Under the pieces are notes generated by a model, which saw only the letters and a list, made by a program, of their open reading frames with translations, was not told where the DNA came from and ran no database searches. Positions 24 to 16,154 of a stretch of DNA of 36,475 nt are shown here, piece after piece; positions within the stretch are counted from its first letter, which is position 1, and every line of letters begins with the position of its first letter. Source of the DNA: Clostridia bacterium (GTDB lineage Bacteria > Bacillota > Clostridia > Oscillospirales > Acutalibacteraceae); assembly GCA_017441385.1 (NCBI GenBank), contig JAFRXY010000045.1, positions 1 through 36,475 on the forward strand. The letters are read 5' to 3'. The translations under genes were made by a program, and so were the position numbers.

Positions 24-1991
24 TTATTTCTTGAGTTCCTCCGCCATAGTCGAAGCGGATTTGAAGGGTCTGCCTTCGCCGGTGAAGAAACGGCTGAACA
101 TCTCGTAGAATTCCAGACGAAGCGCCTGGATGCCGACCAGAAGACCTTCCAGCGCCATGATGATGACATTGCCGAGGATCACCGTGACCCAGTAGCCGAA
201 GCCGCTCATCATGCCCGCCAGTGTGAAGACCACCGTCATCATGCCGGCATGCACCAGAATGAAGGCGCCGACGCGCAGGAAGCTGACGGTATTGGAAACG
301 TAGGACAGCACGACCTCCAGCATTTCAAAGATATTCTGCATGAGGAAATCGCCGATGTTTTCGGGGAACCAGTCCTCTTTGCCCTCGATGAGTTCACTCA
401 GCGGCTCATTGAGGAAGATCAGGATTGCCGGAATGACGATCAGGCAGATCACGTAAGCCGGCGTAAGCAGCGGAATGCCGAGGAACATCTGTCCCAGCAC
501 GCCGAATACCGTTCCGCCGTAGAAGAGGAAGCCCGCGACGCCGTTCTGACTGAACAGCGCGTTGCCGTATTTGTGCTGCTTGCATTTGGTGTAGATATTG
601 AGCAGAATCGCGATCAGCACCAGCACCACGCCGATTCCGATGGCCGCGTAGATCAGTTCCGTGCTGAGTTCGTTGACGTCGAGCAGCTTGCCGTGCATCA
701 ACTGAATGCCTGTTTTTTCATGCACCCAGCCCCAGAAGGGATTGAGCAGCTCCTCAAAGCCGAAGACCGAGCCGAACAGCACGCCGAAGATCGCCGACGA
801 TATGCCGCACATGGCAATGCACTTGCCCAGCTCCATCTTCTTCATCTTCCACATGGCAATCCATGTGATGAGCGACAGGCAAAGTCCCTGACCCACGTCG
901 GCAAACATGATGCCGAAAAGGATAAAGTAGGTAATCGCGACAAACGGCGTCGGGTCCATTTCGTCGTAATTGGGAAGTCCGTACATCTTGACGAAGAATT
1001 CAAAGGGCTTGAAGATGCCGGCGTTTTTCAGCTTGACCGGCGGCGTCTGGGCCGGTTCGTCGCTGGCGTTCTCGAATTTGTACTCGATGCCCCCCAGCTT
1101 TTCCAGCCGCTTGGTGAATTCCTTCTCGTTCTCGGCGGGAACCCAGCCGGCGAGGAAGAAAATCCGGCTGTGCTGGTATTTCGCGGTGTACCGCCGCAGG
1201 TCGAAATTTTTCTTGTGGCGTTCGAGGTAGCTCAGCACCTTGCAGCAGCGCACCTCTTCATCGCCCCAGAAGCCGTCCATCTTTTTCCTGACCTCGTCCA
1301 GCCGCTCATTCAGCCCTTTGAGCTGCTCGGCGAGGGTGTTGTAGGCTTCTTCCGGGGTGCCGACGGCGGCAGGAATTTTCAGGCGTTCCCAGTAGAGGCT
1401 CTGGAAGATTCTGTCCACCTCATGAATATTGTCGATCGGCGCCATGTAAACGCCCCAGACATATTTGTCGTCGCTGGTACAGGGGAAGGTGACGATATAG
1501 GGATTGTCGCTGTACATGCTGAGCTTTTCAAAGCTCTCCTTGGGCAGTCGGCCGAACCGCACCTTGATGAATTCGCACTGGAATATCTCGTCCAGCTTCA
1601 TATCGAAGCCCTGAAAGTGCTTGAACTGCTCCATCGAGTGAGTGACATTCTCAATCTCCTGCGTCAGGCTGAATTTTTCCTCCTGATACTGCGCCAGCTT
1701 TGTCGAAGTACTTTCCACGTAGTCCTTTATCTCGTCCCAGTTCATCAACAGATCGGAATCCTCCACGGGGGCGGCTTCCAGCCTCGCCAGCTTGACCGCG
1801 TCGCTCAGCTTGTTGAGATAGAAGGTGTAGGGATTTTCATCATTGAGCGAAACAAACTCGGATTTGTCCTTGAAGAAGCTCATTGCCTGATCTAAGTGAA
1901 AATTTTCCGAGGAACAGCAGGCGTCAAGCACGGCGTCCAGCTGATCTATGCTCCCGATTATGCTCAGGAGCTTCATTTTCATTACAGCCAT
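24..1991 (-). CDS. ntpI: V/A-type ATP synthase subunit I (a subunit)
   Basis: This 655-residue protein is the membrane stator subunit of the rotary V/A-type ATPase, which couples H+ or Na+ movement to ATP synthesis or hydrolysis. The N-terminal half (about 1-330) is soluble and helical and should contact the peripheral stalk. The C-terminal half (about 345-640) has roughly seven hydrophobic segments. The conserved ion-channel arginine is visible at R573 in the segment SFLRVGAFILVHAG, with a second conserved arginine at R625. Length is normal for the family. The ATG at 1991 has AAGGAG eight bases upstream. It lies 58 bases after ntpC, so the two are cotranscribed. The remaining ATPase genes (rotor ring, catalytic subunits) should lie beyond the left edge. 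Confidence 0.96.
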   Translation of the reverse strand: MAVMKMKLLSIIGSIDQLDAVLDACCSSENFHLDQAMSFFKDKSEFVSLNDENPYTFYLNKLSDAVKLARLEAAPVEDSDLLMNWDEIKDYVESTSTKLAQYQEEKFSLTQEIENVTHSMEQFKHFQGFDMKLDEIFQCEFIKVRFGRLPKESFEKLSMYSDNPYIVTFPCTSDDKYVWGVYMAPIDNIHEVDRIFQSLYWERLKIPAAVGTPEEAYNTLAEQLKGLNERLDEVRKKMDGFWGDEEVRCCKVLSYLERHKKNFDLRRYTAKYQHSRIFFLAGWVPAENEKEFTKRLEKLGGIEYKFENASDEPAQTPPVKLKNAGIFKPFEFFVKMYGLPNYDEMDPTPFVAITYFILFGIMFADVGQGLCLSLITWIAMWKMKKMELGKCIAMCGISSAIFGVLFGSVFGFEELLNPFWGWVHEKTGIQLMHGKLLDVNELSTELIYAAIGIGVVLVLIAILLNIYTKCKQHKYGNALFSQNGVAGFLFYGGTVFGVLGQMFLGIPLLTPAYVICLIVIPAILIFLNEPLSELIEGKEDWFPENIGDFLMQNIFEMLEVVLSYVSNTVSFLRVGAFILVHAGMMTVVFTLAGMMSGFGYWVTVILGNVIIMALEGLLVGIQALRLEFYEMFSRFFTGEGRPFKSASTMAEELKK

Positions 1992-2049
1992 GTCTATACT
2001 CCTTAAATCTTTCGATCCTTTTTGGATTTTTATAGTAACGTGACTATTA

Positions 2050-3093
2050 TCACGAAATCGTAATCATAGAAGCAATCACGTCGGGCGACACCCTGTACCG
2101 CACGCCCTCAATGATGGTCACAATATCCCTGCGCTCGATGCCCGAAAGCAGCAGATAGGAGAAGACCGCCACCGTCGGGTCGGTGGAGAATCGCATGAGG
2201 TGACGCACCCGCTTGTAACTCAGCCGGTTGACCACCTGATCGATGTATTCCTCGTCGATCTCGCCCAGCTCCCGGCCGTAGAAGGTTTCGGAACGGAAGA
2301 TTTCCAGCACTTCCTCCGCGCTGTCGGCGCTCAGCATTTTGTCAAACGTGCGCTTGGAAATTTTATAGCTGCAATCGAACACCAGCGAACGCGCCAGATC
2401 GTCGCCGCAGGCCCGGTAGTATTTCTTGAAGCGGTAGATATTGAGAAAGCTGCTCAGTTCACTGCGCGTTCCCAGCAATCCCAGCAGGTCGTCCCTCGCG
2501 CTGCCGTGGAAATTCTTTTTGATCACCGATTCCGCGTTGGCAAACAGATGGGAATAGAGCGTGTGCTCGATCATGGTGTAGTCGATGGTGCCGTCCTCCC
2601 CCACCGAAATGCCGCGCAGTATCTTGTAGAATACCGTGCCGCTCACGGCTCTGAGGAATTCCCCGTAAGTCTTGGCCTGCGCCATCCGGATGGGATCAAG
2701 ACCGTCCCGCTTGACGAAGTACTTCGGCATGGCGAAGACATATTCGCCGCCGCGTCCCGCCGACAGCAGACGCAGGAATTTGAGTATCTCCCTGATCTGG
2801 GTGCTGTAAACCATGAAGGATCGCATGTATTCCCCCGCGTCGACGCGGTATTGGGAAAGGGCGGTCAGCTCCTTCTGCATGAGATCGTCCAGCGCCGCTT
2901 CCAGCTGGCCGCGGTGGACGTTGGAATCGTCGATATTCCGCAGGGCGTAGGCGTAATGGGTGTTGTTCTTGAGATAAGCCGCCACTTCGGTGACCGTCTG
3001 GCAATTCAGCAGTTCGCTGATGTTCTGCCCGGTCAGCCGCTTGCCGAACATCGCGCGGCTCTTGGTGAGCAGCACATTGGAAGCTTGTGACAT
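2050..3093 (-). CDS. ntpC: V/A-type ATP synthase subunit C
   Basis: This 347-residue protein is the all-helical C (d-like) subunit that caps the membrane rotor ring and connects it to the central stalk of the V/A-ATPase. Features typical of the family are visible: the N-terminal helical repeat with paired arginines and leucines, and the C-terminal end in which a short Tyr-Arg-Val-Ser segment precedes the last helix. Its ATG overlaps the stop codon of the upstream stalk gene by one base (TAATG), indicating translational coupling, and GGGAG lies ten bases upstream. Assignment rests on overall resemblance plus its place between the stalk subunit and subunit I. Confidence 0.93.
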   Translation of the reverse strand: MSQASNVLLTKSRAMFGKRLTGQNISELLNCQTVTEVAAYLKNNTHYAYALRNIDDSNVHRGQLEAALDDLMQKELTALSQYRVDAGEYMRSFMVYSTQIREILKFLRLLSAGRGGEYVFAMPKYFVKRDGLDPIRMAQAKTYGEFLRAVSGTVFYKILRGISVGEDGTIDYTMIEHTLYSHLFANAESVIKKNFHGSARDDLLGLLGTRSELSSFLNIYRFKKYYRACGDDLARSLVFDCSYKISKRTFDKMLSADSAEEVLEIFRSETFYGRELGEIDEEYIDQVVNRLSYKRVRHLMRFSTDPTVAVFSYLLLSGIERRDIVTIIEGVRYRVSPDVIASMITIS

Positions 3094-3410
3094 TATTTAT
3101 CATCTCCCGTGGCTCTGGCGACGATGGCGGCCACCCATCCGTCGCCCTTCTCGGCATAGATCGCGTCAAGCTGGCGCTGGGTTTCCTTCTGCCGTTCCAG
3201 AATCGCCTTCAATTCGACTTCGGCATTTCTCGCCTCCGCCTTTTTGATCAGCTCTACCCGTTCCTCCGCTCTGTCACGGTAGCCCCGGCGAAGCTCTTCC
3301 TTTTTGGCTCTGATCCTGTCCTCCGAGCCGACACGCAGCTTTTTCGCCTCGTCGGTCAGTTCCCGGGCGCGTTTGTCCATTTCAACTATGCGTTCAACCA
3401 TGTCCTGCAT
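3093..3410 (-). CDS. V/A-type ATPase peripheral-stalk coiled-coil subunit (G/H-like)
   Basis: A 105-residue, highly charged protein that is almost entirely heptad-patterned helix rich in Glu, Lys and Arg. This matches the short stalk subunits (called G, H or F) that pair with subunit E to hold the catalytic head of V/A-ATPases. It is the first gene of the operon in this window and overlaps ntpC by one base. The open frame extends upstream to a TTG at 3455, but the ATG at 3410 has AAGGTG six bases upstream and gives a protein starting directly with the coiled coil, so I chose it. Sequence alone does not fix the subunit letter. Confidence 0.85.
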   Translation of the reverse strand: MQDMVERIVEMDKRARELTDEAKKLRVGSEDRIRAKKEELRRGYRDRAEERVELIKKAEARNAEVELKAILERQKETQRQLDAIYAEKGDGWVAAIVARATGDDK

Positions 3411-3483
3411 GATATGCACCTTGCTTTCACCGGCAGATTTTTTATTATGCCGCAATTCTCAAAAAATAGGCGTTTATTCATTA

Positions 3484-4047: not shown

Positions 4048-5610
4048 TTACTTGGACGACTCTTCGCCTTCCATGCCAAGAACATGATGGCACGCCACAA
4101 AATGATTGGGTCTGAGCTCGCGTAATTCCGGTGTGATATTCTTGCAGATTTCGGTGCAATACTTGCATCTCGTGTGGAACTTGCAGCCCTTGGGGGGGTT
4201 GACCGGGCTGGGAATATCTCCCTCCAGCACGACCAGTTCACGGTTGTCGTCCACATTGGTGGTGGGAATGGCGGAAAGCAGCGCCTCGGTGTAGGGGTGC
4301 ATGGGGTGATCGAACAGCTCCTGCGATTCGCTCAGCTCGACCATGTTGCCGAGGTACATAACGCCGATACGGTCGGAAATATACTTGACGACGGACAGAT
4401 CGTGGGTGATGAAGAGGTAGGTCAGGTTGTTCTTTTCCTTCAGATCCTGAAGCAGATTGATGATCTGCGACTGAATGGAAACGTCCAGCGCCGAAACCGC
4501 CTCGTCACAGATAACAAACTTCGGACTGGTGGAAAGTGCGCGGGCAATGCCGATTCTCTGGCGCTGACCGCCGGAGAACTGGTGCGGGAAGCGGTGAATG
4601 AAGTAGGGCGCGAGTCCGCACATCTCCATGATCTCCAGAACGCGCTCCTGCATTCTCGGGCTGTTTTTGGTGAAATATTTGTGGGCGAGCATGCCTTCGC
4701 CGATGATCTGACCGACGGTCATTCTCGGATTCAGGGAGGAATAGGGATCCTGGAAGATCAGCTGTAATTCGCTGCGGAAGCTGCGCATTTCCTCCTTGTT
4801 GAGTCGGGCGAGGTCGATGCCGTCGTCACGGTACGGCTCGTACTTCTGGAATTCCGGGTCATCCTTGTACTGTGCGCGGATCTTGTCTATTTCAGACTGT
4901 GCCTCGGCCAGAGAAGCTCTCTGCGCGGTAATCTTTTCGTCTATTTCACCGATCTTTTCATTGATGGAATCGACCTTCTTCTGACCCTTGCCCTTTTTCT
5001 CCACGTCATACTGCACGTCAGCCAGCTTGTTTTCATATTCCCTGTGGGAATCGAGCAGCTTGCGGAGCTGGGCGGAATGGTCCCGGGCGCTCTTGAAGGC
5101 ATCCTGTATCTGCGTGGTGTCTTCCACGGTGATAAAGCCGCCGAAGATGTTGGCTATATCATAGAAGGCGGCGTCAGCGTCCCGCTTGGCCTGACGGAGC
5201 GCCTCATTTTTCGCGTTCTGTTCGCTGGCGGACGCCCTGTCGAATTCCGCCTGCGCCTCTTTTTCCTTTTCGCGGAGACGGATCCACTTTTTGCGCAGAG
5301 CCGGAAGATTTTCGATGGTTTCGCTCATGTATTCCGGAGCAAATTCATCGAGCGAACGTCCGTAGTACATGGTTCTGCCGTCCGTCTGGGGATACAGCTC
5401 CAGCACGGTGCGTCCGAAGGTGGATTTGCCGCAGCCGGATTCGCCCACAAGTCCCAGTGTTTCACCCTCGTAGATATTCACGTCGATACCGTCGTTTGCC
5501 TTGACGTACATACCCTTCTGCTTGAGGGGGAAATACTGCTTGAGGTTGGTTATTTTAAGGAGAACCTTCTTTTCAGTTGTGTCCTTCATGTCTCTTTTTT
5601 CATCGGCCAT
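4048..5610 (-). CDS. oppF: Oligopeptide-type ABC importer ATPase (OppF) with coiled-coil insertion
   Basis: One of the two ATPase subunits of the Opp/Dpp-type importer. Canonical parts are Walker A GESGCGKS (56-63), Q-loop Q287, signature FSGGQRQR (345-352), Walker B with catalytic E370, H-loop H403, and the C-terminal OppD/F domain with cysteines 476, 482, 485 and 489. At 520 residues it is about 190 longer than usual OppF. The excess lies between Walker A and the Q-loop (about 84-275). It is mostly charged helix with heptad character, interrupted near 152-162 by a hydrophobic, glycine-containing stretch. ATG at 5610 has AAGGAGG nine bases upstream and overlaps oppD by 11 bases. The substrate cannot be read from sequence. 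Confidence 0.93.
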   Translation of the reverse strand: MADEKRDMKDTTEKKVLLKITNLKQYFPLKQKGMYVKANDGIDVNIYEGETLGLVGESGCGKSTFGRTVLELYPQTDGRTMYYGRSLDEFAPEYMSETIENLPALRKKWIRLREKEKEAQAEFDRASASEQNAKNEALRQAKRDADAAFYDIANIFGGFITVEDTTQIQDAFKSARDHSAQLRKLLDSHREYENKLADVQYDVEKKGKGQKKVDSINEKIGEIDEKITAQRASLAEAQSEIDKIRAQYKDDPEFQKYEPYRDDGIDLARLNKEEMRSFRSELQLIFQDPYSSLNPRMTVGQIIGEGMLAHKYFTKNSPRMQERVLEIMEMCGLAPYFIHRFPHQFSGGQRQRIGIARALSTSPKFVICDEAVSALDVSIQSQIINLLQDLKEKNNLTYLFITHDLSVVKYISDRIGVMYLGNMVELSESQELFDHPMHPYTEALLSAIPTTNVDDNRELVVLEGDIPSPVNPPKGCKFHTRCKYCTEICKNITPELRELRPNHFVACHHVLGMEGEESSK

Positions 5611-6607
5611 TCTGACGTTCCTCCTTATTGGGGTAGAAGCACCTGATTTTCTGTGTATCGCTTATCTTGACAAACTCAGGCTCGCATTCCTTGCACTTAT
5701 CTGTAGCGTATTTGCACCGGGGGGCAAATTTGCATCCCTTGGGAAGATCGAGCGGATGGGGCACCGAGCCGGGAATCGCCTGCAGGCGCTCGTTGGCGGG
5801 AGTGTCCAGACGGGGTATCGAAACCATCAGACCCTCGGTGTAGGGGTGAGAAAATTTGGTCTTGGGGTCAAAGAGCACCTTCGCCGGCACGCTCTCCACC
5901 ACCTGACCGCAGTACATGACAGCCACATAATCCGCCATCTGATTGATGACGCCGAGGTCGTGGGTGATAAACAGAATGCTGGTGCCGCGCTCCTTTTTCA
6001 GCTCGTTCATGAGCCGGAGGATCTGTGCCTGAATGGTCACGTCGAGTGCCGTGGTCGGTTCGTCGGCAATCAGCAGCTTGGGCTTGCAGGCCAGCGCCAT
6101 GGCGATCATCACGCGCTGACGCATGCCGCCCGAAAGCTGGTGGGGATACTGCTTGGCCACGATCTCGGGGTTGGGAATCTTGACCGCTTTGAGAATTTCC
6201 ACCGATTCCTTGGCCGCCTGCTTCTTATCCATATTCTGATGGATCATGAAGACCTCGGAAATCTGCTTTTCGATCGTGAAGACGGGATTCAGGCTGGTCA
6301 TCGGCTCCTGGAATATGACCGAAATATCGTTGCCTCTGACCTCGTACATCTCATCGAGAGAAATCTTTGTCAGATCTCTGCCGTCAAAAATGATCTCGCC
6401 GCTGTCAATATATCCGTTTTCGTCCAGCAGGCGGAGAATGCTCATGGCCGAAACGCTCTTGCCGGAGCCGGATTCGCCCACGATTCCCAGCGTCTCGCCT
6501 TCATGAACCAGATAGGAAGTATCGTTGACCGCCTTGATTACGCCTCTTCTTGAAGTGAAGAACGTATGCAGGTTCTTTACTTCCAGCAATACTTTTTTAT
6601 TTTCCAT
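5600..6607 (-). CDS. oppD: Oligopeptide-type ABC importer ATPase (OppD)
   Basis: The second ATPase of the Opp/Dpp-type importer, 335 residues and of normal length. Walker A GESGSGKS is at 44-51, the Q-loop glutamine at 100, signature LSGGMRQR at 158-165, Walker B LLIADEP at 178-184 and the H-loop histidine at 216. The C-terminal oligopeptide-transporter domain has the cysteine set (292, 298, 305) that binds an iron-sulfur cluster in characterised homologues. It pairs with OppF below the membrane. Its stop overlaps the oppF start. The ribosome site upstream of the ATG at 6607 is weak (AAAGGT about 14 bases away). Confidence 0.95.
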   Translation of the reverse strand: MENKKVLLEVKNLHTFFTSRRGVIKAVNDTSYLVHEGETLGIVGESGSGKSVSAMSILRLLDENGYIDSGEIIFDGRDLTKISLDEMYEVRGNDISVIFQEPMTSLNPVFTIEKQISEVFMIHQNMDKKQAAKESVEILKAVKIPNPEIVAKQYPHQLSGGMRQRVMIAMALACKPKLLIADEPTTALDVTIQAQILRLMNELKKERGTSILFITHDLGVINQMADYVAVMYCGQVVESVPAKVLFDPKTKFSHPYTEGLMVSIPRLDTPANERLQAIPGSVPHPLDLPKGCKFAPRCKYATDKCKECEPEFVKISDTQKIRCFYPNKEERQNGR

Positions 6608-6679: not shown

Positions 6680-8554
6680 TTATCTGCCGTTTGCTTTCGG
6701 ATCGAGGGCGTCGCGGAGACCGTCGCCGATCAGATTGATGCAGATACATGCCACACCGAAGATCGTACCGACAAACAGCCAGTTCCACCAGTACTGCTGG
6801 ATGATGATGCTGTCGTTGGCGTTGGTGAGCATATTGCCCCATGTGGGGGTCGGCAGCGGAACGCCGAAGCCGAGGTAGGAAAGGGTGGATTCAGTCAGCA
6901 TGGAGGTACCGAACGCCAGCGTGATGGACACCAGACAGACCGACATGACGTTGGGAATGATATGCGAGAAGATGATCTTGCTCTCACGCACGCCGAGCGC
7001 CTTTGCCGCCACGACGTATTCCATCTCTCTCTGCGAGAACATCTGGGCGCGCACCAGCCGGCAGAGTCCCGGCCATGAAAGGATGCCCAGAATCACCATG
7101 ATGATATACATTCGCTGCTCCACCGAAACCTTGGTGCCCATAACCGCCGAAAGGATCATGGCGAAGGGAATGAACGGCATACTGGAGACGACTTCCGCGA
7201 TACGCATGATGACCATATCCACCACGCCGCCGAAGTAACCGGCCAGACCGCCGAGGATGATGCCGATAATCATTTCAATGATAACCGACAGAGCGCCGAT
7301 GGTCATGGTCATCTTGCCGCCGTTGACCAGACGGGCGAAGACGTCTCTGCCCAGCTTGTCGGTGCCGAGCAGGAAGCCCTTCAGACCCCATGTGTGAATT
7401 TTGCCTTCACCGTCGACCGCGTAATTCTGGAAGGAGCCGACATAAACATTCTGAATATTGTCATCCTTGAGCGAATCCGGCACATCCGACTGGTTGTAAC
7501 GGTTGCTGCCCCAGCTCACGACGCTGCCGTCGGCGAGAAGCGCGGTGTAATGATAACGTCCGCCGTCTATGCTCACGACTTCAGACGAAAAGGCCGGTAC
7601 CTTGTTTTCGCCCTTCGTGGCGGCGCCCCATACCACCACATTGCCGTCTTTGCGAAGGGCGGCGACAGTGGTGCTGCTGGAGGAAATGCTCTTGATGTTG
7701 AAGGAAGCGGCCACAGGTATTTTTGTGACTGTCTGTGAAGCGTTGTAGTTGCCGCACACCACTCTGCCCTCGTCCGTCAGGATAACATAGGCGGTATTGG
7801 TGAGCGCCGCGTCAACGACATGACCGTCCAGTTCGGAAGCTTTGTAGGAAAGGTCGGCAAAATTTTCATTGCCCCAGAGAATCGCCCTGTTGTCCTCGGT
7901 GATGACAAGAGAGAACTGGTCGGAGGCATAGATCTTTCTGATGCCGAATTCATGCGTGCGGTTGTTGGCAATCAGATCCGCCGGAAGGGTGGTCTGTCTG
8001 AGGCGGTTGTTGCCCCACGCGTAGACCGTTCCCTTGTCGTCAAGGGCGACAATGTGGTCGCTGCCCGCCGCCACCTGCACGATCTTGGCATTCTGCACAT
8101 TTTCGGGAATCTCGGAAAGATCGATGACCTGCGTCACCTTGTATTTGCCCCATACATAGACCTTGCCGGTTTTGTCGCAGGCAACGGAATAGTTGTATCC
8201 GATGGACAGATCCTGCACGCCGTTGTCTTCCAGCTCGCCCGGGTAGTCCAGCATCTGGAATCCGGGGGAAATGTTGACCAGCGTGCTGTCCTGTTCGCCC
8301 AGGTCAAGCTCCACAAATTCGGGAGCGATAAAGACGAAGAGCGCTATGATGATAAACACGACCAGCGCGATGACCGACATCGGCTTTGAGAAAAAGTTGC
8401 GCACAACCATTCTCATCGGGCTTTGCAGCTGCTCCTCGGCATAAATGTCCAGTTCCTTGCCCGGGAAGAGAAGCCTTTTGATCCATCTGAAAAGGAAGAA
8501 TTCCTTTTTGGAGGAGCCAGTTGTTTTCTTCTGATTTGTCTGATTGCTGCTCAT
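6680..8554 (-). CDS. oppC: Oligopeptide-type ABC permease (OppC) with an inserted RCC1 beta-propeller
   Basis: A 624-residue permease, about twice the usual OppC length. Residues 1-58 are cytoplasmic and 59-78 form membrane segment 1. Residues 113-391 hold seven RCC1-type repeats, each ending in a strand such as KVYVWG, TVYAWG or SVVSWG. The normal OppC sequence resumes at GTDKLGRD (397-404), followed by five membrane segments and the EAA coupling loop (about 512-535). In known OppC topology the loop after segment 1 faces outside, so the propeller should lie extracytoplasmically near the binding protein. Seven repeats is the number that closes an RCC1 propeller. The frame is open throughout, so this is no assembly join visible to me. 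AAAGGAG precedes the ATG by nine bases. Confidence 0.93.
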   Translation of the reverse strand: MSSNQTNQKKTTGSSKKEFFLFRWIKRLLFPGKELDIYAEEQLQSPMRMVVRNFFSKPMSVIALVVFIIIALFVFIAPEFVELDLGEQDSTLVNISPGFQMLDYPGELEDNGVQDLSIGYNYSVACDKTGKVYVWGKYKVTQVIDLSEIPENVQNAKIVQVAAGSDHIVALDDKGTVYAWGNNRLRQTTLPADLIANNRTHEFGIRKIYASDQFSLVITEDNRAILWGNENFADLSYKASELDGHVVDAALTNTAYVILTDEGRVVCGNYNASQTVTKIPVAASFNIKSISSSSTTVAALRKDGNVVVWGAATKGENKVPAFSSEVVSIDGGRYHYTALLADGSVVSWGSNRYNQSDVPDSLKDDNIQNVYVGSFQNYAVDGEGKIHTWGLKGFLLGTDKLGRDVFARLVNGGKMTMTIGALSVIIEMIIGIILGGLAGYFGGVVDMVIMRIAEVVSSMPFIPFAMILSAVMGTKVSVEQRMYIIMVILGILSWPGLCRLVRAQMFSQREMEYVVAAKALGVRESKIIFSHIIPNVMSVCLVSITLAFGTSMLTESTLSYLGFGVPLPTPTWGNMLTNANDSIIIQQYWWNWLFVGTIFGVACICINLIGDGLRDALDPKANGR

Positions 8555-8571: not shown

Positions 8572-9591
8572 TTATTTATCAATGCGCACTCTGGGGTCAA
8601 CCAGTGTGTAGCTGATATCGGTCAGCAGAACGCCCACCAAACTGACCAGCGTGTAGAACATCTGCATGGCCAGAACCAGCTCGTAGTCGGTGGCGTTGAG
8701 CGCCTGCCAGTACAGACGTCCCGTGCCCTTGAGGGCGAAGGTGGTTTCGATAACCAGCGAACCGCCGGTGAAGACGGCGATCATCCAGCCCATGATGGAG
8801 GTGGAGACAGGCAGCAGGGCATTTCTCCACGCGTGGCTGTAAATAACCACTTTTTCCTTCAGACCCTTGGCTCTGGCGGTGCGGATATAGTCCTGCGATA
8901 AAGTATCCATCATCGCGGCGCGGACGGTTCGGGTCATTCCCGCCAGTCCCGTGAACACCAGCACCAGTATCGGCAGCGCCATGTAATACATACGGTCGCC
9001 GAATTCCATCAGTCCGGTATAGTCGGAACCCGGCGTCTTGGCGCCTCCGGTGGGGAAGATGCGGAACAGCACGGCAAATAAAAAGATAAAGAGAATACCT
9101 ACCAGATAAGTCGGCAGGCTGTAGCCGATCACCGTCGTCGCCTGAATCGCGCTGTCGGCAGGCTTGCGGGCGTGAACGGCGCAGAAGATGCCGAGCGGAA
9201 TGGTGATGGCCAGCGTGATAACGGTGGAGCAGAAATTCAGCAGCACCGTGTTGAGCATAGGAGTGGGAATAATTTCAATCACATCCCGCTTGTAACCGGT
9301 GGAGTAACCGAAATTGCCCTGCAGCAGACCGTCAAAACTGCCGTTGACGTCCGGCCAGAGACCCATCCAGCGGGCATATCTCTGAATCAGGGGAGCGTCC
9401 AGACCCATCTGCGTGCGAAGCGCCTGATACTGACGGGCGAATTCGTCCGGCTTGAGCGACTTGCGCAGAGGCTCCATCGCGACCAGCGCGGGATCGCTGG
9501 GAATCAGATTGTAAATGGCGTACATCATGAGGGATACAACAAAGAAAACTATGATAAGGTATATGAGACGCTTGAAAATGTACTTTTTCAT
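8572..9591 (-). CDS. oppB: Oligopeptide-type ABC permease (OppB)
   Basis: A 339-residue permease of the OppB/DppB family with the usual six membrane segments and an N-terminal cytoplasmic start MKKYIFKRL. The EAA loop that contacts the ATPases is at about 234-262 (DYIRTARAKGL then the RNALLP end). Length and spacing are ordinary: unlike its partner OppC it has no inserted domain. It lies 17 bases upstream of oppC and follows the binding-protein gene after a terminator hairpin. The start at 9591 is preceded by GGAGG about 13 bases away and a closer TAGGAT. Confidence 0.95.
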   Translation of the reverse strand: MKKYIFKRLIYLIIVFFVVSLMMYAIYNLIPSDPALVAMEPLRKSLKPDEFARQYQALRTQMGLDAPLIQRYARWMGLWPDVNGSFDGLLQGNFGYSTGYKRDVIEIIPTPMLNTVLLNFCSTVITLAITIPLGIFCAVHARKPADSAIQATTVIGYSLPTYLVGILFIFLFAVLFRIFPTGGAKTPGSDYTGLMEFGDRMYYMALPILVLVFTGLAGMTRTVRAAMMDTLSQDYIRTARAKGLKEKVVIYSHAWRNALLPVSTSIMGWMIAVFTGGSLVIETTFALKGTGRLYWQALNATDYELVLAMQMFYTLVSLVGVLLTDISYTLVDPRVRIDK

Positions 9592-9861: not shown

Positions 9862-11844
9862 TTAGCCAACATACTTCGCGTAGAGGATGGCTCTGGAGAA
9901 GCCCCAGAAGGAATACTCCTCGTAATCAGTGATGGTGTTGGGATAGACGGTGACGTAGATGTTGGAGTACAGCGGCACTCTGGGGAGAAGCTCATTGTAA
10001 CGGATAACGAAATCCTGCCACTTCTTGAGGAATGTGTCATAGTCGCTCTGATCCACGCCGTAAACCATTTCCATCGAGAGCTTGTCGAGCTGCTCATCAT
10101 AGCAATGGGTGGTATTGTAACCTTCCTCAATGTAGGCGGGATCAGTGGTGAACTCAAAGGACATATCGTAAGCGTCAGCACTCCAACCGGTAGCGAGGTT
10201 GAACATATTGTAGGTAGGAACGGAATAATCGCCGCCCAGACCGTATGCATCCTGACGGTACATGTAGTTGATAAGCTCAGGGAATGTCATGAGATTCTGC
10301 TTGATCTCAACACCGGACTCCTTGGTTGCCTTGCCGTTGGCCAGCATGGTGACAAGGAGGTCGGAAACGGCGTTGCCTTCGGAAGAAGCCCAGTTCAGGG
10401 TTGCGGGCATGAGGATCTTGTCGCCGACTTTGACGCAGAACGCGTCGTAGTTGGTGGCCTGCTCTGCGGTAACTTCCTTGTAACGGACTTCGCCGCTGCC
10501 GTCGACATAGTCGCTGCCATCCTTGTTGTAGACGAAGCCTGCCTGCTTGAGCATCTCGACTGCCTTGGCGGGATCGTAGCTGTAGGTGTTCAGCTTGGAA
10601 GCGAAGAGATCCTTGGAATCGTTGTACATTCTGAAAGCGGTGCAGTAAGGACCGTGGACAACGCCGCCCCAGCCCTGGCAGAATGTCTTGGCAAACTCTG
10701 TGCGGTCGAGGAGGTAGGCAACAGCCTGACGGAACTCAGGGAACTGAGCAGGACCGAGGTCGCAGGCAAACTGGAAGTAGCCGAAGCCTGCGCGGTCATA
10801 CTGGCAGTAAGAGCTGTCGATCGCCTTGCTGTCGATAAGGTCGATCGCCGCGTTGACCTGATCGCCGTCAGCGATACCGGAGTAGATCTCGATGCCGCCG
10901 GTGCGGATGGTGTCGATAACGGTATCATCCTCAGTCTTGACGATGACAACCTTCTTGATGTGGGGCTTCTGACCCTGGAAGTCGCCGGCGTAGTTCTCGT
11001 TGACTTCGAGAGTGATCTGGTTGGCGCTCTTGTCGAAGTTCACCAGGTTGTAAGGACCAGCGGTAACTCTGTCAGAGGTAGCGTACTGCGCAGCCTTGAA
11101 CTGCTCGCCGATGTCAGCGACAGAGAGGGTCTTGCCGTTTGCGTTGGTGAGGTATGCGCCCTGACCGTCATCCTTGACAGACCAGCCCTCTCCGAACCAG
11201 TAGTCGAGATTGACGGCACGGTATGCGGCGTAGCCCAGGTCATAGAAGTAAGGCACATAAGTGTTGCCGTCTGTACCCACCTTAAGGGTAGTTGCGGAGA
11301 ATTTGTACTCGTCAAGCAGACGGAGACCGGAGAGAACCTCGGCTTCGCCTTTACGATATTCAGCACCGCCGGGAATCATGTTGTGAGAAGCGGTGACGGT
11401 GCCCATTTCTTTACCAGCGGGGCTGAGAGCAAAGAGTGTCCATGCGAGAAAGTTCTCGGCTTTGATGTCTGTGCCGTTGTTGAACTTCAGACCCTTTTTG
11501 ATCTCAATCGTAAAAGTCAGATTGCCGTCAGCATCAGTTGATCGCTCGCAGCTCTCAACAACGGAATTATTGACAACATAAATGCCAATTTTATCTGTTG
11601 TGACTGTAACGCAGTCGTCTGTCAGGTCGATAACGTCCTTATCGGTAGCGTTGGGGTTGCTGGTGAATGCGCTGTAAGCCCAGTCGCCGTTGGCCTCTGT
11701 GCTGGTGCCGATGATGACCTGACCCTTGGGGGTGTCGTCCTCAGCTGCATCATCTGTCTTCTTGTCGCCGCAGGCGGTGATCGTCATGGCGCCAAGAGCA
11801 AGAGCGAGAAGCAGACTAAGGATTCTTGTGTGCATCTTCTTCAT
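9862..11844 (-). CDS. Peptide/solute-binding lipoprotein of the opp transporter (SBP family 5)
   Basis: A 660-residue extracellular binding protein of the OppA/DppA class (SBP_bac_5). A type II signal peptide runs from MKKMHTR to the lipobox ITAC with lipidated Cys25. An acidic linker (about 30-40) leads to the binding domain, which has family sequences such as LTFTIEIKKGLKFNNG and a C-terminal part with VPLYSN. At 660 residues it is longer than typical OppA (about 540). The frame opens upstream to 11997, but the ATG at 11844 with GGAGG upstream starts a perfect signal peptide, so the extension is noncoding leader. It is the first gene of the opp operon. Confidence 0.94.
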   Translation of the reverse strand: MKKMHTRILSLLLALALGAMTITACGDKKTDDAAEDDTPKGQVIIGTSTEANGDWAYSAFTSNPNATDKDVIDLTDDCVTVTTDKIGIYVVNNSVVESCERSTDADGNLTFTIEIKKGLKFNNGTDIKAENFLAWTLFALSPAGKEMGTVTASHNMIPGGAEYRKGEAEVLSGLRLLDEYKFSATTLKVGTDGNTYVPYFYDLGYAAYRAVNLDYWFGEGWSVKDDGQGAYLTNANGKTLSVADIGEQFKAAQYATSDRVTAGPYNLVNFDKSANQITLEVNENYAGDFQGQKPHIKKVVIVKTEDDTVIDTIRTGGIEIYSGIADGDQVNAAIDLIDSKAIDSSYCQYDRAGFGYFQFACDLGPAQFPEFRQAVAYLLDRTEFAKTFCQGWGGVVHGPYCTAFRMYNDSKDLFASKLNTYSYDPAKAVEMLKQAGFVYNKDGSDYVDGSGEVRYKEVTAEQATNYDAFCVKVGDKILMPATLNWASSEGNAVSDLLVTMLANGKATKESGVEIKQNLMTFPELINYMYRQDAYGLGGDYSVPTYNMFNLATGWSADAYDMSFEFTTDPAYIEEGYNTTHCYDEQLDKLSMEMVYGVDQSDYDTFLKKWQDFVIRYNELLPRVPLYSNIYVTVYPNTITDYEEYSFWGFSRAILYAKYVG

Positions 11845-13519: not shown

Positions 13520-14698
13520 TCACTCACCAAAGGAAAACATTCTGTAATTGGCCGAATCGGGTCTGTTATGGGCGCCAATCATAAACTGAGCATAGCAAAT
13601 CAAAACCGTGTCATATTGATTATCCAGAATATATTGCCGGATACGAAACCATGAGCTTTGGTCTCTCAGCACAATATTGTCGATCTCATTGACACCAAGT
13701 GAAAGAAACGGCTCCGTTACTTTGGAATACGAATCGGCTAGCATCAGCACCTTTCCGTTTTTCACATCGTGATTGACACATTTTTTTGTCAAATAGGAAT
13801 AATGCCAGCTATCACTCTGGTAGACATCCGTTTCAGGCGAATAACTGGACTCATCGATAAATGCATCAAAGGAACCATCGGTTTTTCTGCCTTCTGAATC
13901 AGTAAACGTATAATTCGTTTTAAAAGCGGGCTTGATTTCTGTGTAATCATCAAGACCAATATAGGTTTTGGATATTTTTTTCCCCTGCTCGCCAAGCCAG
14001 CAATTTTTCCATTCCTTTACCTCATATCTGGAAATATCATACAGCTCCAAATCTATATCATATCCCAATTGATCGTTCATGGATCGGGCAATCTGACGGG
14101 TAGCCCAAAAACCCGCTTTGGTTGTCCAGTGATGATCTGTTCTGTAAAACAAATCGCGGATATCAATATTGTCTTCCTTAATCTTTTCTCTTAAATCCAG
14201 ATACGGGATGCCCGCCTCCTCAATTCTCTTTAAAAGCAGATCCGCATTCTGATTGCTATAGCTTTTAACGCCGAATTCATCCAGCATGATGCTGTCGTCC
14301 ATGTATTTAACAGGCTGATTGACATAAAGCAATTGAATGCCGTTTTCTTTTAGAAATTCATAAAATGACGTTATTTGTTCAAATTCATAATCCGTATCGG
14401 CTTGAGGATCGGATGAAATAATATAATTGCCCTCGGACACAAAAATATCACTATTACTGTAAAAGCCTTTCATATCAAGCGCTTTGACTACCAGACCGTG
14501 TAAATTGAAAAATTTGGTTTTGTAAAGCATTTGATTGGTAAATTGCGTCTCAATATTCTCTTGACCGATAGATTTTTGAGCCAGATAGGCAGATAGCGTG
14601 TTAAGCTGTGAAAAACAGTCTATTGAAATAAACATGACAAACAGCATTATAACAAATAAGACTGCAACCATTTTCTTGATTTTACATGAATTATCCAT
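13520..14698 (-). CDS. DHHW family (AlgX/AlgJ-like) protein, partner of the MBOAT acyltransferase
   Basis: A 392-residue protein with one N-terminal membrane segment (about 9-27) and an extracytoplasmic SGNH-like domain. The family motif DHHW is at 188-191, preceded by RT and followed by TTKAG. A later block LMLADSYSK resembles the nucleophile region of AlgX/AlgJ-type enzymes. Such proteins are encoded next to MBOAT acyltransferases and complete transfer of acetyl groups onto extracellular polysaccharide or wall polymers. A TTG at 14710 is possible, but the ATG at 14698 with GGAG six bases upstream is better. The gene is clearly AT-richer than its neighbours. The polymer acted on is unknown. 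Confidence 0.88.
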   Translation of the reverse strand: MDNSCKIKKMVAVLFVIMLFVMFISIDCFSQLNTLSAYLAQKSIGQENIETQFTNQMLYKTKFFNLHGLVVKALDMKGFYSNSDIFVSEGNYIISSDPQADTDYEFEQITSFYEFLKENGIQLLYVNQPVKYMDDSIMLDEFGVKSYSNQNADLLLKRIEEAGIPYLDLREKIKEDNIDIRDLFYRTDHHWTTKAGFWATRQIARSMNDQLGYDIDLELYDISRYEVKEWKNCWLGEQGKKISKTYIGLDDYTEIKPAFKTNYTFTDSEGRKTDGSFDAFIDESSYSPETDVYQSDSWHYSYLTKKCVNHDVKNGKVLMLADSYSKVTEPFLSLGVNEIDNIVLRDQSSWFRIRQYILDNQYDTVLICYAQFMIGAHNRPDSANYRMFSFGE

Positions 14699-14723
14699 GA
14701 TTTTCTCCAACCAGCATCAAAGA

Positions 14724-16154
14724 TTAAAAGTTTGCATAAGCGAAGGGGTTGTTATTGCCGGCCACTATGAACGATATGGCACAAACAAACAATCCCAATG
14801 TAACAACGGCTGCAAGCGCCTCATAAACCACAGACAGCTTTTTCCTCGGCCTGAGCCTGCCCTCGATCCATTTCGCGACAGGGAAACAAAAGAGCACGGC
14901 CGCCAGAAGAAACACGCTATACTCTTTCAGCAGGACACCCGTCCGCAAATCAGCCGTTGTGTCATTCTGACGGTTAAAAAACATCACTTTAAGGAATTGA
15001 AATCCGCTTTCCAGCGTCTTTGAGCGGAAAATAACCCATTGGCAATTGATAAAGATCAACGTAAATACCCTGTACAAAATCCGGCTGTATCGGTGTTTGA
15101 ATCTCTGAGGGAACTTCGTCATCCGCTCAAAGCTGATCAGCACGAAATAGCCCAAGCCCCAGAAAACGAAATTCCACGAGGCTCCATGCCAGATTCCCGT
15201 AAGGAGCCATACGACAAACAGATTTCTGTAAACCAACAGCTTATTTTTGCAGCGCGAACCGCCCAACGGTATGTAAATATAATCTCTGAACCACTCGCTC
15301 AAAGAGATGTGCCAGCGTCTCCAGAAACCGGAAACCGATTCCGTCAAATAGGGATAATGAAAATTCTCCATGCATTGATAACCGAACATTTCGGAAAGAC
15401 CGATGGCCATGTCGGAATATCCCGCAAAATCAAAAAACAACTGAAGAGAATAACACACCGAACCAAGCCACGCGTATGACGCCGTACAGCTTTCAACCGG
15501 GGAAGAAAAGATTTCGGTTGTAATTTTGGACAGGACATCCGCAAGCAGAACCTTTTTATTGAATCCGATCAGAAAGCGGAACACACCGTCCGAAAACAGG
15601 GTAAAGGAGGCGGATTTCTGACCCTTCAGCTCCGCCGGAAACACCATGTCATTATACCGGGTCAAAGGACCTGACTGAATCTGCGGAAAAAACGAGAGGT
15701 ACAGCGCGTCATGCACGGGATTGTCGTTCAATACCGCCTTTTGGGTATAAATATCCGTAAGATACGAGATGGATTTAAACGTAAAGAATGATATTCCCAA
15801 GGGCAGCGCCAATTGAAATAAAGGAAGGTGAGTCCCGGAAACGGTATTGATATTCTCTACGACAAAGTCAGAATACTTGTAATATATCAGAACACCTGCA
15901 TTAAACAAAACACCCAAGACAAAGAGCAGTCGCTTTGTCATCTTATTGACAGCCGCATGAATGCTCCTTCCGATAAAAACATTGACTGCCAGACAAAACA
16001 GAAATTTGACAATATATTCCAACGAACCTATTGCATAGAAGAAAAGACTGATAAACAACAGTACATATTCCTTTATCCTGTCATCCGCCAGATAGTAGAC
16101 AGCCAATGCTATGGGCAAAAAAAAGAATAAAAACAAAACGCTATAGATGGACAT
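14724..16154 (-). CDS. MBOAT family O-acyltransferase (AlgI/DltB-like)
   Basis: A 476-residue polytopic membrane enzyme of the MBOAT family. Family motifs are FPQIQSGPLTRY (about 156-167), FDFAGYSDMAIG (241-252), the FWRRWHISLSEW block with His282, and the catalytic histidine His323 in TGIWHGASWNF. Members move an acyl group, usually acetyl, from the cytoplasm through the membrane to an extracellular acceptor. It is of normal length. It is followed 25 bases later by the DHHW gene, the usual two-gene arrangement. AT content is higher than in flanking genes. A rather distant GGAG (12 bases) precedes the ATG. Confidence 0.93.
   Translation of the reverse strand: MSIYSVLFLFFFLPIALAVYYLADDRIKEYVLLFISLFFYAIGSLEYIVKFLFCLAVNVFIGRSIHAAVNKMTKRLLFVLGVLFNAGVLIYYKYSDFVVENINTVSGTHLPLFQLALPLGISFFTFKSISYLTDIYTQKAVLNDNPVHDALYLSFFPQIQSGPLTRYNDMVFPAELKGQKSASFTLFSDGVFRFLIGFNKKVLLADVLSKITTEIFSSPVESCTASYAWLGSVCYSLQLFFDFAGYSDMAIGLSEMFGYQCMENFHYPYLTESVSGFWRRWHISLSEWFRDYIYIPLGGSRCKNKLLVYRNLFVVWLLTGIWHGASWNFVFWGLGYFVLISFERMTKFPQRFKHRYSRILYRVFTLIFINCQWVIFRSKTLESGFQFLKVMFFNRQNDTTADLRTGVLLKEYSVFLLAAVLFCFPVAKWIEGRLRPRKKLSVVYEALAAVVTLGLFVCAISFIVAGNNNPFAYANF

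Follow-up and report, generated by a model that had tools for sequence, protein, structure and literature searches.

What could a folded propeller of the RCC1 type do in the outer loop of a peptide permease? The question is raised by a gene on the 36,475-nucleotide contig JAFRXY010000045.1 of a Clostridia bacterium (hereafter the window, meaning the whole stretch that was analysed), which encodes an OppC-like permease with a large insert. Peptide importers of the OppBCDF/DppABCDF family are well studied. The window operon holds a family-5 substrate-binding protein (SBP), OppB, OppC, OppD and OppF (Table 1), and on the basis of these domains and of the operon layout it is predicted to encode a type I oligopeptide ABC importer. 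All 68 loci that hold the five genes, among the 80 best loci analysed here, have them on one strand and in the order SBP-OppB-OppC-OppD-OppF. The start of the SBP was picked by eye, the listed open reading frame beginning at a GTG (11997).

Table 1. Coordinates of the importer genes in the window and of the segments of OppC and OppF
Feature	Position	Strand	Basis
oppF-like ATPase, 520 aa, insert before Q-loop	4048..5610	-	
OppF insert, ~170 aa, probably helical, possibly coiled-coil, about residues 91-262	4825..5340	-	relatives' spacing; periodicity
oppD-like ATPase, 335 aa, without insert	5600..6607	-	
oppC-like permease with RCC1 insert, 624 aa	6680..8554	-	single open frame, Pfam, AF2
OppC core, residues 394-624, GTD motif through C-terminus	6683..7375	-	
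Seven-bladed RCC1-type propeller, about residues 98-393	7376..8263	-	
TM1-to-propeller linker, residues 81-97	8264..8314	-	
OppC TM1, residues 58-80	8315..8383	-	AF2 helix 58-80; Pfam OppC_N
oppB-like permease, 339 aa, without large insert	8572..9591	-	
Family-5 substrate-binding lipoprotein, 660 aa from ATG before lipoprotein signal	9862..11844	-	Pfam SBP_bac_5 1.8e-31

The original prediction had placed seven RCC1-type repeats between TM1 and the GTDxLGRD motif of an otherwise normal OppC, and Pfam, the AF2 model and the fold match all agree with it. The interval then proposed, 7382..8218 (residues 113-391), lies within the domain, which is slightly longer (Table 1). It enters OppC loop 1 between its N..P and xLGTDxLGRD parts, and OppC resumes exactly on both flanks, as had been claimed. 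Indeed, Pfam recognises OppC_N at residues 45-92 (33.2 bits, cut-off 23.9) and BPD_transp_1 at residues 431-621 (115.9 bits, cut-off 26.4), together with RCC1_2 (PF13540) in five stretches (125.3 bits, gathering threshold 22; 4.6e-37) and RCC1 (PF00415; 24.1 bits, gathering threshold 21.7). The WD40_RLD / RCC1-like domain model (PF25390) reaches 134.5 bits, below its threshold of 150; in distant RCC1-OppC members it scores 168.9 bits (L158) and 119.4 bits (L162). The latter protein, of 707 aa (L162:4943-7063 (-), genome G434), has an additional acidic low-complexity stretch within the propeller. Six of the seven repeat units in the window protein end in WG and the fourth in CG, with a mean identity of 26%. 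A recent amplification of the repeats is ruled out by this low identity and by a fixed blade register, the best match of a blade being the blade at the same position in 307 of 385 comparisons with 55 distant homologues.

When the 624-residue protein is modelled alone with AF2, the repeats form a closed seven-bladed propeller, which is also recovered by structural matching, and the permease part aligns to solved OppC/DppC on both sides of the insert. Among PDB entries, BLIP-II matches the insert best, in sequence as well as in fold. The domain had been proposed to face outward, and homology supports this placement: the model aligns to OppC/DppC, and the regions joining TM1 and TM2 of DppC are described as periplasmic in passages of the DppABCDF study (PMC12136057). 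The charge pattern is consistent with it, OppC residues 1-57 holding 11 K/R and 5 D/E and residues 83-105 none and four, respectively, so that the N-terminus is the positive side. Since both stretches joining propeller and permease have pLDDT of 60-78, the orientation of the propeller is unsure.

Among known systems, the closest are the type I peptide importers OppBCDF and DppABCDF (8z21, 8z1v-8z1z; Mtb OppABCD 8j5q-t), whose OppC/DppC chains matched in the PDB measure about 280-300 residues; compared with them, the present system adds a propeller of ~295 aa in OppC loop 1 and an insert of ~170 aa in OppF. The nearest NCBIfam models are Opp4A, Opp4B and Opp4C, and the present system scores below their curated cut-offs (295.1 bits against 350 for the Opp4C equivalog NF045476, which is the nearest model but, by that cut-off, not a family to which this OppC belongs). 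BLIP-II likewise consists of seven short repeats forming an RCC1-type propeller, but it is a free, secreted inhibitor of beta-lactamase with no permease attached, and the likeness, being one of fold only, does not imply that the OppC propeller binds beta-lactamase. RCC1 exchange factors act in guanine-nucleotide exchange on a small GTPase, an activity that we do not claim for a propeller predicted to lie outside the cell. AmiC, the long OppB of streptococci, is also a subunit of a peptide permease and has a larger first outer loop; the enlargement is on the OppB side and its domain is not of the RCC1 type. The long OppD and OppF of mycoplasmas (NCBIfam MMSYN1_0167/0168; profile lengths 561 and 649) are also enlarged peptide-importer ATPases, likened here by length alone. 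The P2 domain of the maltose importer corresponds to MalF residues 91-271, and its fold and loop differ from those of the OppC propeller. It is likewise a folded extracytoplasmic domain in a permease loop and is reported to touch the binding protein (PMC3150292, in part), a likeness of use and not of kinship. Cell-wall anchored proteins are among the bacterial proteins in which RCC1 repeats have been described (passages of PMC10928387 and PMC4449606). The open-licence PMC literature that we searched yielded no protein combining RCC1 with an ABC permease, OppC or peptide transport, and the combination of OppC with an RCC1-type propeller, coupled to a second unusual insert, was found nowhere described.

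Is this architecture confined to the window? When 84,980 species were scanned, each represented by a single genome, 263 pattern matches were obtained, of which 231 are relatives of the TM1-to-GTD query. We analysed the best 80 of these 231 relatives (loci L043-L122), each covering at least residues 1-370 of the 372-residue query. Because other species carry the same architecture, an assembly error at the junctions is ruled out. According to the record titles, the carriers among the best 80 include Clostridia, Oscillospiraceae, Lachnospiraceae, Erysipelotrichaceae, a Christensenella and Hungatella effluvii DSM 24995, and rumen or gut samples are named in many of these titles. Three bins labelled Anaerolineaceae or Chloroflexi (L099, L101, L107) also hold the operon; L099 falls within the Bacillota part of the OppC tree, which may reflect transfer or mis-binned contigs.

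At closer range, the insert lies in the OppC frame of 6 of the 18 genomes of the window's genus, one of them cut by the contig, after five genomes with weak matches only, to separate RCC1 proteins, were dropped. In the same genus, L003 and L039-L042 hold separate proteins of ~485 aa that, judged by eye, have a hydrophobic N-terminal stretch, a region of helical appearance and repeats resembling RCC1. In the family sample the insert was matched in 6 of 200 genomes, while 76 of the 200 match the query at E 1e-20 or better, mostly via the permease core. In the class sample, RCC1-OppC is present in 17 of 391 genomes; of the 19 that matched, G392 and G393 were excluded because their partial matches, in frames of 1952 and 681 aa, belong to different RCC1 proteins. 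When the same 391 genomes were searched with the OppC core, the top 17 matches were the 17 RCC1 carriers (weakest E 6e-76), followed by a 319-aa OppC (2.6e-72). Finally, in a tree of the core columns, insert excluded, a single branch separates all RCC1 carriers from the other OppC (SH-aLRT 99, quick method). This tree was built from 107 RCC1 and 40 other rows thinned to 48 and 30 (78 rows), leaving out L199 and L201 (no usable frame) and two L046 and one L082 listings (too short). The carriers occur in many species and form one clade in this sample, and most simply the propeller was gained by one insertion and kept since.

Judged from the coding sequences, purifying selection is acting on the propeller, whose dN/dS lies at 0.10-0.32 compared with 0-0.09 for the core (the window gene compared in 7 pairs; for the propeller, dS reaches 1 or more in some of them). 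A tolerated loop insertion without function is accordingly hard to credit and in our view most improbable: OppC loop 1 has unrelated inserts without Pfam match in other lineages within the family, so the site does tolerate insertions, but these dN/dS values, the persistence of one clade across many families, the fixed blade register and the invariant polar residues all stand against mere decoration.

The conservation is moreover unevenly distributed. In the loops toward the presumed termini (strand A-B and C-D), 15 of 63 positions other than G, P and W are at least 90% conserved, compared with 3 of 59 in the loops of the opposite side (Fisher p 0.004; Mann-Whitney p 0.04 when all conservation values are compared), the sides being set by strand order and not by coordinates. 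The most conserved polar residues (D166, H167, R184, Q187, Q213, N229, N231, D234, H335, Q376 and N377) sit on loops of one propeller end or at the edge of these loops, and by strand order both connections to the permease leave from that end. Polar residues conserved on one face could suit a funnel or filter that captures or sorts peptides before passing them to the SBP or the gate. We consider such a role improbable, since peptide capture is already provided by the SBP directly upstream in all 68 five-gene loci, and our literature searches found no RCC1 fold taking up peptides.

The second unusual feature of the operon, which the original prediction did not include, is the insert in OppF between Walker A and the Q-loop. 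The distance between these motifs is 220-244 residues in OppF (5-residue bins) compared with 50-59 in OppD; a neighbouring operon of the ordinary type has an OppF in which it is 50 residues. Charged residues abound in the insert, and its hydrophobicity repeats with a period near 104 degrees, not far from the coiled-coil value, though with p only 0.03 over residues 100-260 (p 0.005 for 158-240 and 0.06 for 100-140); it is probably helical and may be a coiled coil. It was found in all 73 measurable operons of the best 80 RCC1-OppC loci (in two OppF is cut by contig ends and in five there is no OppF), and in every one of the 17 class-sample genomes with RCC1-OppC (a search found it in 14 and inspection in the other three, the shortest of the three measuring 196 residues). 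In the six RCC1 genomes of the family sample, three inserts were detected by search and one on inspection (G028, 207 residues). Weak partial OppF matches were dropped (G357 and G432 in the class sample; G071, G083, G084 and G185 in the family sample, E 1e-4 to 1e-3), and in G316 the OppF insert lies on a 3.7-kb contig that ends in OppD and shows no OppC. Such an insert is absent from the 15 non-RCC1 OppF compared: seven have a measured spacing of 50 residues, and the other eight, with the motif unread, were judged on a frame length of 330-413 aa.

Two genomes, G078 (L166) and G189 (L167), keep RCC1-OppC with a normal OppF, so the pair is not obligatory, and an OppF insert that is a compulsory partner of RCC1-OppC is ruled out. 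Their OppF either lost the insert or never gained it: in the OppF tree (thinned from 90 rows to 32, with 13 listings left out as having no readable motif or being cut short) both group with insert-bearing OppF (support 100), yet fall outside them (weak, 78).

According to passages of the E. coli study (PMC12136057), DppF pairs with DppC and DppD with DppB, and by homology one half of the transporter would carry both the propeller and the OppF insert. The importer might then be regulated from two sides, the propeller sensing a ligand or the SBP outside and the OppF insert relaying to or from a cytosolic partner through the OppC-OppF half. We hold this to be distinctly unlikely. The co-occurrence of the two inserts in the operons and class-sample genomes given above, the non-RCC1 OppF lacking the insert and the DppC-DppF pairing speak for it; G078 and G189 speak against it, and linkage within one operon may be mere co-inheritance. 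A mirror-tree test on 47 loci gave its highest residual correlation for the propeller and the OppF insert (partial r 0.33, p 0.0005), compared with 0.23 (p 0.005) for the propeller and the SBP and 0.24 (p 0.006) for the SBP and the OppF insert. The three values are similar and single out no partner; they do not separate the ideas. At least as doubtful is the broader proposal of a receptor-transporter family, in which the outer propeller and an inner coiled-coil arm would together make up a single unbroken half of the importer and report the status of peptide or SBP to a cytosolic partner, uniting uptake and signalling.

We tentatively favour another role, namely that the propeller serves as an accessory docking or gating platform for the substrate-binding lipoprotein of its own operon, a reading that we regard as possible and short of probable. 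In the E. coli DppABCDF importer, the binding protein caps DppB and DppC, docking on the outer face, and a scoop motif in the loop after DppB TM1 enters it (passages of PMC12136057); MalF-P2 contacts MalE directly (PMC3150292, in part). It is this outer-face docking, the P2 contact and the conserved loops on the termini side that lead us to favour docking or gating. The first outer loop of OppC would have acquired, most simply once, the seven-bladed RCC1-type propeller; placed next to the substrate gate on the outer face, the domain would work for the SBP of the operon as MalF P2 does for the maltose-binding protein, its conserved face probably meeting the permease and the docked binding protein. 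The OppF helical insert, linked to it in the operon, would probably be the cytoplasmic counterpart in the same half of the machine. Against docking stand the unsure orientation of the propeller and the rate correlation, which does not prefer the binding protein (0.23, compared with 0.33 for the OppF insert).

As BLIP-II, the closest solved relative, binds another protein, any partner is possible. The propeller could act in adhesion or recruitment, a separate surface partner (a cell-wall polymer, a secreted protease or peptidase, a host or food protein) placing the importer where peptides arise. We rate this role as unlikely. It would fit with RCC1 domains being protein-interaction folds whose nearest solved relative is a secreted inhibitor, with the RCC1 repeats in cell-wall anchored proteins of honeybee-gut bifidobacteria (passages of PMC4449606) and with the rumen and gut origin of many records. 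However, the conserved face appears to be turned to the permease and not outward, and the search for a further conserved partner gene next to the operon gave none present in more than 17 of the 80 loci, whose flanks differ in length and are short in some. The neighbour clusters that reach up to 17 of the 80 loci are mixed ABC ATPases and a lineage-specific frame.

A large group of bacteria, mostly gut or rumen Clostridia, Erysipelotrichaceae and relatives, carries a folded propeller resembling a receptor at the outer gate, together with a helical extension of the corresponding ATPase. If the propeller controls SBP docking, as we favour, the system could serve as nature's own experiment on the way in which extra domains adjust the passing of substrate in type I importers; should the propeller bind an outside partner, gut bacteria would turn out to have a so far undescribed contact with their surroundings. 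The system is open to testing because some carriers are named strains and not bins (Hungatella effluvii DSM 24995, L073; Erysipelotrichaceae NK3D112, L071).

In the source genome (98.75% complete) we found no second OppB and no second OppC. It holds three family-5 SBPs in total and one OppB; two of the SBPs (L216:6351-8123 (-) and L217:4287-5993 (+)) are orphan binding lipoproteins without permease neighbours. A platform shared by several receptors is not supported by these orphans, because family-5 SBPs are present in all 18 genomes of the genus, including eight in which no OppB was detected (several of the eight being incomplete).

Large inserts of a different kind precede the GTD motif in other OppC from this family (L009, L010, L011, L014, L016, L017, L019, L020, L021, L025 and L026), some of them recognised by offset alone; the OppC of L009, L017 and L020 have Pfam matches to OppC_N and BPD_transp_1 only, and OppF frames measure 341-381 aa in eight inspected operons of this kind. 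Finally, the operon of the window is flanked upstream by an MBOAT and an AlgX-like gene (13520-16154 (-)) and downstream by V-type ATPase-like genes, recognised by eye only (24-3455 (-)).
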